DNA of 64,000 bases from a bacterium HR10 (GTDB lineage: Bacteria > Acidobacteriota > Blastocatellia > HR10). The position numbers were made by a program, and so were the translations under genes. Numbering within the stretch: the stretch's first letter is position 1; every line of letters begins with the position of its first letter. This document shows positions 107 to 1,366 of this stretch, piece by piece. Location of the stretch: the NCBI GenBank assembly GCA_002923315.1, contig BEHM01000013.1, positions 1 to 64,000 on the forward strand, read 5' to 3'. A model generated the notes under the pieces. That model saw only the letters and a list, made by a program, of their open reading frames with translations, did not search any database and was not told where the DNA came from.

Positions 107-346
107 TCAGCGAGAGGCCCGAGTCCGCCGTCCGCGACGGGCCTGCGGCCTCTCCAGCTCCGGCAGCTCGAAAGGAATCTTCCCTTCGTTCAGCTCTCTC
201 ATCGCCTGGTTGATGGCCCACGCCAACCCCTGGCTCTCCGGATGCTTCACCAGCTGCTTGGCGCGTTTGGCCACAACCGAACAGATCAAGTAGCGACTGT
301 CAAACTTCGAGAGGGCTTCCTCAGCCAATTTCACCCGCGTCGTCAT
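107..346 (-). CDS. rpoZ: DNA-directed RNA polymerase omega subunit
   Basis: A 79-residue protein matching the omega subunit, which helps fold and assemble the beta-prime subunit of RNA polymerase. The core motif DSRYLICSVVAKRAKQL (about residues 16-32) is typical of the family, followed by a helical segment and a basic tail. The ATG at 346 is chosen because GGAGGGGAGAAGG lies just upstream and the resulting N-terminus (MTTRVKLAEEAL) fits the family; an upstream GTG at 409 would add 21 unconserved residues. It precedes dnaK and lies about 150 bases downstream of the promoter. Its placement in a dnaK transcription unit is unusual. Confidence 0.9.
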   Translation of the reverse strand: MTTRVKLAEEALSKFDSRYLICSVVAKRAKQLVKHPESQGLAWAINQAMRELNEGKIPFELPELERPQARRGRRTRASR

Positions 347-465
347 TGCCCTTCTCCCCTCCTGGCCGTGAAATTTCGAAAGGGCCCATTCCGAACCCCC
401 TTCACGCACCAGGAGATTATAGCACTACGCGCACACCCTGCCTACGTTCAAATATCCGCTGCGGA

Positions 466-493
466 GCTAAAAGCCCAAAGCCGAGCTTTTAGC
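466..493. promoter_or_regulatory. 9-bp perfect inverted repeat in the rpoZ-dnaK leader
   Basis: GCTAAAAGC at 466-474 and GCTTTTAGC at 485-493 form a perfect 9-bp stem with a 10-base loop. It lies just downstream of the leftward -10 box, so in the rpoZ-dnaK transcript it would be near the 5' end of the leader. There is no T-tract on either strand after it, so a terminator is unlikely; an mRNA-stabilising 5' hairpin or a protein-binding site is possible. Confidence 0.4.
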
Positions 494-501
494 CGAATCC
501 T

Positions 502-530
502 ATAATAAAATATGAGTCCGTGCATGTCAA
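502..530 (-). promoter_or_regulatory. Sigma-70 promoter of rpoZ-dnaK
   Basis: Read leftward, TTGACA (525-530) and TATTAT (502-507) are separated by exactly 17 bases. Transcription would start near 495, giving a leader of about 150 bases before rpoZ. The HAIR-like site at 511-531 covers the -35 box and spacer, so a bound repressor would block polymerase. Confidence 0.8.
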
Positions 531-531
531 G
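511..531 (-). promoter_or_regulatory. HAIR-like operator, dnaK side
   Basis: Read leftward the site is CTTGACA-N7-ACTCATA. The HspR-associated inverted repeat known from Streptomyces is CTTGAGT-N7-ACTCAAG; this site keeps the 7-base spacing and 5 of 7 bases in each half. An identical pair of half-sites, in the opposite orientation, lies at 593-613. Binding by the neighbouring HspR is inferred, not shown. Confidence 0.7.
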
Positions 532-592
532 TATCGCCACCAAACATCCCGCATCCCTTCGGTTCAATAGAGAAGATACCGGTGACGAGAAA

Positions 593-613
593 CTTGACAA
601 AGCAAGACTCATA
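593..613 (+). promoter_or_regulatory. HAIR-like operator, hspR side
   Basis: CTTGACA-N7-ACTCATA, with half-sites identical to those of the leftward copy at 511-531 but a different 7-base spacer. It overlaps the -35 box and spacer of the hspR promoter, the position expected for autorepression. The two sites are 82 bp apart centre to centre. Confidence 0.7.
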
Positions 614-622
614 TATTAGCAT
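594..622 (+). promoter_or_regulatory. Sigma-70 promoter of hspR-infA
   Basis: TTGACA (594-599), a 17-base spacer and TAGCAT (617-622). It drives hspR rightward and, because infA follows hspR after 15 bases, probably infA as well. The HAIR-like operator at 593-613 overlaps it. Confidence 0.75.
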
Positions 623-670: not shown

Positions 671-1126
671 GTGAAGAAGCGGAAAGAGAAAGGCTACACG
701 ATCAGCGCCGTATCTGAGGCGTATGGGATTCACCCGCAGACTCTGCGCCTATATGAGCGGCATGGCCTGTTGAAACCATCGCGCTCAAAGGGGAACACGC
801 GATACTATTCAGAGCAGGATTTGCAGCGATTGGAATTCATTTTGACGCTCACGCGCGAGTTGGGGGTGAATCTGGCGGGGGTCGAGATCATCCTCAACAT
901 GCGCGACAAGATGGATGCCATGCAGCGGGAGATCCAGCGGTTCTTGGAGTTCCTGCGGATGGAGCTGGGAGAGCGCTTGGTCTCACAGGTGACGGAGAAG
1001 TTCGCTCTGGTTCCGTTCAGCTATGGGGCGCTTCTGCGTGCGCCCTCCGCGAAGGCGGAGGACGAGCGCGATGTCCCGTTCACATATATTGAGGAAACCT
1101 CATGGGAATCCACAGACCACGGATGA
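671..1126 (+). CDS. hspR: MerR-family heat-shock repressor HspR
   Basis: A 151-residue MerR-type regulator. The N-terminal winged helix-turn-helix carries HPQTLRLYERHGLLKPSR and a second segment GNTRYYSEQDLQRLEFI, followed by the LTRELGVNLAGVEIIL stretch typical of HspR rather than metal-sensing MerR proteins. HspR represses dnaK operons by binding HAIR repeats, with DnaK as co-repressor. It sits divergently from rpoZ-dnaK, and both promoters carry HAIR-like sites. The start is uncertain: GTG at 671 is preferred because GAGGAA (655-660) precedes it, but TTG at 653 is also open. The C-terminal 35 residues are unconserved in appearance. Confidence 0.85.
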   Translation: MKKRKEKGYTISAVSEAYGIHPQTLRLYERHGLLKPSRSKGNTRYYSEQDLQRLEFILTLTRELGVNLAGVEIILNMRDKMDAMQREIQRFLEFLRMELGERLVSQVTEKFALVPFSYGALLRAPSAKAEDERDVPFTYIEETSWESTDHG

Positions 1127-1141
1127 AGGAGGTGAACGCCT

Positions 1142-1366
1142 ATTAGCAAAGAGGACATGATTCCCGTCGATGGAACGGTCGTGGAGGCGTTGCCCAATGC
1201 GACCTTCCGCGTGAAGCTCGATGGAGACGGTCATGAAGTGCTCGCCCATCTCTCTGGGAAGATGCGGAAGAACTATATCCGCGTTCTTCCGGGAGATCGC
1301 GTTCGCGTGGAACTCTCCCCCTATGACCTGACGCGGGGACGGATCACCTACCGCTACAGCAAATAG
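1142..1366 (+). CDS. infA: Translation initiation factor IF-1, probable ATT start
   Basis: IF-1 occupies the ribosomal A site during initiation. The protein is a single OB-fold with the family motif [15 protein letters not shown] and [13 protein letters not shown]. The first ATG (1157) would remove the conserved start; in frame upstream is ATT AGC AAA GAG GAC ATG, giving (M)[12 protein letters not shown], which aligns with the usual IF-1 N-terminus MAKED-I. The only good Shine-Dalgarno, AAGGAGGTG (about 1127-1134), lies 7 bases before the ATT but 22 before the ATG. I therefore annotate an ATT start and 74 residues. ATT starts are known for infC, where IF-3 controls its own translation; for infA this would be unusual. 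A sequencing error at the first codon is the alternative. Confidence 0.85.

Follow-up and report, generated by a model that had tools for sequence, protein, structure and literature searches.

Does the product of the hspR gene control both of the promoters that diverge from the intergenic region between hspR and the rpoZ-dnaK block of this genome, and does it do so through a site built into the promoters themselves? The window is the opening 64-kb stretch of contig C13, which belongs to an assembly of 3.13 Mb. To the left of the intergenic region, rpoZ comes first, followed by dnaK, both on the minus strand, which refines the earlier annotation; a comparison of the relatives' loci placed DnaK at the equivalent position, with the block running on into dnaK. 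To the right, the expected hspR neighbour was confirmed as a MerR-family gene, whose start is most likely GTG 671 rather than TTG 653, as judged by comparison with relatives. The features are collected in Table 1.

Table 1. Coordinates of genes, promoters and operators at the left end of the window.
Feature	Position	Strand	Basis and remarks
dnaK start, truncated by contig end	1..63	-	first 21 codons; NCBIfam DnaK 27.4 bits over 21 aa
rpoZ (RNA polymerase omega subunit)	107..343	-	Pfam RNA_pol_Rpb6 39.1 bits, cut-off 26
Possible second, operator-free rpoZ promoter, TAGGCA-17-TATAAT	416..444	-	promoter scan
CTAA of third conserved element	489..492	-	38 nt downstream of first T of TTGACA
-10 box TATTAT, rpoZ-dnaK promoter, 17-bp spacer	502..507	-	promoter scan; relatives TATTAT/TATTCT
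Operator over rpoZ-dnaK promoter, CTTGACA-N7-ACTCATA	511..531	-	exact match; kept in 9 of the order's 10 genomes
-35 box TTGACA, rpoZ-dnaK promoter, within left half-site	525..530	-	promoter scan
Operator over hspR promoter, CTTGACA-N7-ACTCATA	593..613	+	exact match; kept in all 10 of the order's genomes
-35 box TTGACA, hspR promoter, within left half-site	594..599	+	promoter scan
-10 box TAGCAT, hspR promoter, 17-bp spacer	617..622	+	promoter scan; relatives TAGCAT/TACGAT/TAGGAT
hspR	671..1126	+	homologue of MerR-family heat-shock repressors; 151 aa from a GTG start; Pfam MerR_1, NCBIfam HspR
infA	1142-1366	+	IF-1 gene, 3' of hspR

The original prediction held that CTTGACA-N7-ACTCATA occurs once on each strand, and that each copy contains the TTGACA of a -35 box, 17 bases from TATTAT or TAGCAT. 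Both statements proved correct. A 103-bp segment (511-613) contains the two copies, each with 0 mismatches and pointing outward, and the promoter scan returned TTGACA-17-TATTAT on the minus strand (530 to 502, 11/12) and TTGACA-17-TAGCAT on the plus strand (594 to 622, 10/12), among four promoter-like sites in 2 kb, where 0.6 would be expected. The rpoZ gene may have a further promoter lacking an operator at 444-416, of which the TATAAT is kept in five genus members and the -35 box is not. The genome-wide search that had been proposed for CTTGACA-N7-ACTCATA found exact matches only at the two intergenic sites. All other matches in this genome carried two or three mismatches and were not commoner than those of a reversed control pattern (41+23 versus 39+40), and a search allowing three mismatches ran at chance level.

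Two further observations were made at this end of the window. The infA gene appears to begin with ATT, given that no codons other than ACG, CCT and ATT separate the in-frame stop from the conserved IF-1 start. The putative start is closely preceded by AGGAGGTGA and is kept in the order's other genomes in which infA was found, and three of the loci (L038, L039 and L040) have no in-frame ATG shortly downstream as an alternative; the titles and abstracts covered by our literature search held no report of AUU as an infA start. In addition, a perfect 32-bp palindrome, CCCCACTAGACTGACATGTCAGTCTAGTGGGG, lies at 2172-2203 between a TetR-family gene (~1476-2156) and a gene beginning at 2227, and is likely a TetR operator.

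Conservation was then assessed within the order. TTGACA-N7-ACTCATA was present in all ten genomes, and the reversed-pattern control in none. Conserved half-sites with variable centres had been expected in relatives that keep hspR, and this is what the order displayed: between genera, identity was 0.36-0.43 in the N7 centre and 0.19-0.41 in the flanks, with TTGACA and ACTCA unchanged, at the hspR promoter in ten of ten genomes and at the divergent promoter in nine. This invariance is partly by construction, since the sites were found with TTGAC-N9-CTCA, yet every genome had such a site there. The N7 spacing was found in all sites of the order. Depending on the genus, 63-67, 84 or 104-106 bp separate the two divergent -35 boxes (L031-L040), and these steps of about two helical turns might reflect contact between both operators.

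To follow the site beyond the order, a sequence-only profile trained exclusively on 16 intergenic sites was run against 118 genomes of the class, of which 68 had a match at E up to 0.05, compared with none for a decoy read backwards. Of the sites outside the training set, 81 were classified by BLAST (hsp20, dnaK, groES and lon) and Pfam (clpB and dnaJ). Heat-shock genes followed 78 of them (73 hsp20, dnaK, groES or lon, 3 clpB and 2 dnaJ); of the other three, one is at the end of a contig and two do not precede heat-shock genes. Additional sites within the order stand before hsp20, hsp20-dnaK, lon and groESL. Across the phylum, the profile had matches at E up to 0.01 in 45 of 297 genomes; of 17 sites inspected beyond the class, 16 stand before dnaK or hsp20. 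In the genome of the window, the two-mismatch match at G000:C6:75103, ~70 bp before groES, is a real site; the groESL operon there carries the operator variant CTTGACAGTATGAGACGCAGATTATATAAT, a weaker version with ACGCA, and the same design recurs genus-wide and in G005. The composite site is very probably the switch of the heat-shock response across this branch of the Acidobacteriota; the literature searched described no HspR site or regulon for that phylum. Conservation in the order and recurrence before heat-shock genes throughout the class and the phylum also support the original view of a diverged HAIR element with the -35 box inside the operator.

The hspR product scored 70.7 bits against Pfam MerR_1 (cut-off 21.6), which identifies a MerR-type DNA-binding domain, and 99.6-99.7 bits against the HspR family NF047375, ~5 bits under its curated cut-off of 105. 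Two relatives from the class (G031 and G015), with 67-71% identity to the window protein over 100-115 aa, scored above that cut-off (106.4 and 105.9). By homology, the window protein is an HspR homologue. Of the 297 phylum genomes, 248 have HspR; among the 45 that carry the motif, 43 do (Fisher P 0.016, uncorrected for shared ancestry); motif-bearing G285 and G307 (92% and 84% complete) returned no HspR match.

Linkage to hspR takes two forms. The gene is divergent to rpoZ-dnaK here, where the site overlies the gene's own promoter, and follows a dnaJ-like gene in other orders, where in many families the site is 3.1-3.6 kb upstream of hspR and heads a dnaK..dnaJ-hspR operon. An exact-motif search beside hspR in the other orders gave no match because in those orders hspR comes last, behind dnaJ, and the site is ~3 kb further upstream. 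A motif-free test was also made, in which regions upstream of high-scoring hspR genes of the phylum were inspected and genomes already having a motif match were left out. Ten of 13 dnaK starts had TTGAC-N8-[AG]CTCA, and thus the N7 spacing, two others had ACTAA at the same position, likewise at N7, and one had nothing. The 127 N7 sites compiled overall come from loci mostly fetched by N7 patterns and hence do not constitute independent evidence for the spacing.

The canonical HAIR, the HspR operator of Streptomyces, is CTTGAGT-N7-ACTCAAG (PMC7464140, PMC6102357). The window sites agree with it at 10 of 14 half-site positions (CTTGAca, ACTCAta), four of which are expected from any TTGACA box. 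Relative to the Streptomyces consensus, the left half keeps its five outer bases (CTTGA) and exchanges GT for CA, which creates a consensus -35 box, whereas the right half keeps its five inner bases (ACTCA) and loses AG, so that the near-symmetry is gone and the dyad is reduced to a TGA-N11-TCA core (3/7 pairs). Over 130 sites, ACTCA is followed by TA (63), GA (22), AA (13), CA (8) or AG (7). Some outgroup dyads are near-complete, for example CTTGA-N11-TCAA in L278, L291 and L294, and several outgroup sites, among them CTTGACAATAATTAACTCAA, itself nearly symmetrical, and CTTGATAGAAGTCTACTCAA, are closer to canonical HAIR. Genome-wide searches for the palindrome CTTGA-N11-TCAAG were uninformative, with counts near the control in many genomes and too high for inspection. 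By sequence, the site is a HAIR-like variant and not HAIR by definition.

Other features are shared with known systems. As in Streptomyces, whose HspR targets include dnaK, clpB and lon (PMC2687793), two half-sites flank an N7 centre in dnaK, clpB and lon promoters, and the repressor gene adjoins; unlike there, hsp20 and groESL are additional targets. The HspR sites of Campylobacter jejuni and Helicobacter pylori are likewise imperfect, HAIR-like and 21 bp long, with a left arm that is well kept and a right arm that is AT-rich, and these regulators also include groESL in their regulons and make contacts beyond the core site (PMC7464140, PMC6102357). In both species, however, HspR sites at groESL and hrcA are located 5' of the core promoter, with the start itself occupied by HrcA, whereas here the site is locked in register with the promoter and HrcA is mostly absent.

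The strongest competing explanation is that a different heat-shock regulator binds the conserved site and HspR is merely a neighbour. The weak dyad and the two of 45 motif-bearing genomes with no detected HspR would agree with this, but the site lies on the hspR promoter or on an operon ending in hspR in many families, and its half-sites and N7 spacing fit HAIR, which makes another regulator unlikely. Less likely still is a pure promoter, in which TTGACA, ACTCA and the -10 box would together be recognised by an alternative heat-shock sigma factor and no repressor takes part. TTGACA and the -10 box do belong to the conserved unit, and ATATTTTATTAT is common to many sites; yet the hexamers are the standard housekeeping-sigma consensus at 17-bp spacing, for which a special sigma factor is unnecessary, and the -10 box varies (TATTAT, TAGCAT, TACGAT, TATAAT) while ACTCA is constant. 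That these are ordinary strong promoters whose spacers are alike by chance deserves hardly any credence: the original finding was picked by eye, and one profile match (L240, E 0.04) precedes an apparent tRNA and prs and no heat-shock gene, but the comparative data refute this reading through the order-wide presence, the empty decoy search and the 78 of 81 sites before heat-shock genes.

HrcA was also considered, as its operator, CIRCE, has the form TTAGCACTC-N9-GAGTGCTAA and HrcA/CIRCE likewise represses groESL and dnaK operons, with a different sequence and position and, in this order, only in G007. The proposal that the sites are CIRCE, to which the same target genes and the resemblance of its GCACTC to CACTC might point, is refuted to the extent of retaining practically no probability, as the GAGTGCTAA partner arm is missing, HrcA was not found in nine of the ten genomes of the order, including that of the window (assembly 87.5% complete), and in other orders a CIRCE-like TTAGCACTC stands beside, not within, the groES site. 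Reading the sequence at 471-640 revealed no CIRCE. HrcA was thus ruled out as the binder; G007, the only HrcA-bearing genome of the ten, has CIRCE at groES instead, where the operator is missing. In the same genome, the left-hand operator beside hspR (L036) has decayed to CTTGACATAGTGTGGCTAAGATTTTATTATG. In another order, L213 and L226 carry before groES an HspR-type site and a second promoter ending in CIRCE-like TTAGCACTC or CTAGCACTC, which suggests dual control of groES by HspR and HrcA.

We therefore favour, with a probability of about 0.88, an operator of the HspR type, in which the -35 box forms the left half of a variant HAIR and which would silence the divergent promoters and a chaperone regulon until heat. 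The anatomy of the site, its conservation, its association with heat-shock genes, its linkage to hspR and the exclusion of HrcA are results of the analysis; HspR as the binder, repression as the outcome of binding and feedback by DnaK are parts that we infer. A dimer of HspR, the adjacent MerR-family repressor, would sit on the operator of a housekeeping-sigma promoter and keep RNA polymerase off. Bound at 593-613 or 511-531, it would mask the -35 box together with all of the spacer except the three bases next to the -10 box, which makes simple occlusion of the polymerase the likely mode. The separate copies would silence hspR, as autoregulation, and the divergent rpoZ-dnaK operon. The prediction that one repressor shuts both directions is compatible with an operator on each promoter, and stands with one qualification: the two operators are self-contained, with none shared. 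DnaK is the corepressor of HspR in Streptomyces, according to a title cited by PMC2687793. By analogy, the repressor would release on heat as DnaK is drawn away, both directions would fire, and DnaK and HspR would afterwards re-establish repression. The same operator would govern groESL here, and hsp20, dnaK-dnaJ, clpB, lon and groESL in relatives.

A third conserved element accompanies many sites. In 77 of 130 sites, [CT]T[AC]A is found at a distance of exactly 38 nt from the first T of TTGACA, as CTAA at hsp20 and rpoZ; at many dnaK promoters the form is TCAA, one base further. The element was noted in L163-L202 and other operator-bearing promoters. It is absent on the hspR side. The element falls at the expected transcription start and resembles a half-site; both a second repressor contact and a role at the start site are possible. 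Separately, the very start of the rpoZ-dnaK leader (466-493, minus strand) contains the inverted repeat GCTAAAAGC-N10-GCTTTTAGC, which five members of the genus retain while its loop changes, and which is absent outside the genus; the hairpin was not unusually stable compared with shuffled sequences (z -1.27).

A wider scenario can be put forward tentatively, at somewhat less than even odds. HspR may have taken over the general heat-shock regulon, including groESL, throughout the Acidobacteriota, with the -35 box as the left half in fixed register, the third half-site-like element ~24 bp on at the transcription start serving a second dimer, and the operator replacing CIRCE at groESL where HrcA was lost. 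The related genomes offer what would be a clear swap from HrcA to HspR at groESL. The putative operator provides an example of a repressor site and a promoter sharing bases; it can now be searched for, and a regulon is predicted for a large phylum in which genetic tools are scarce.
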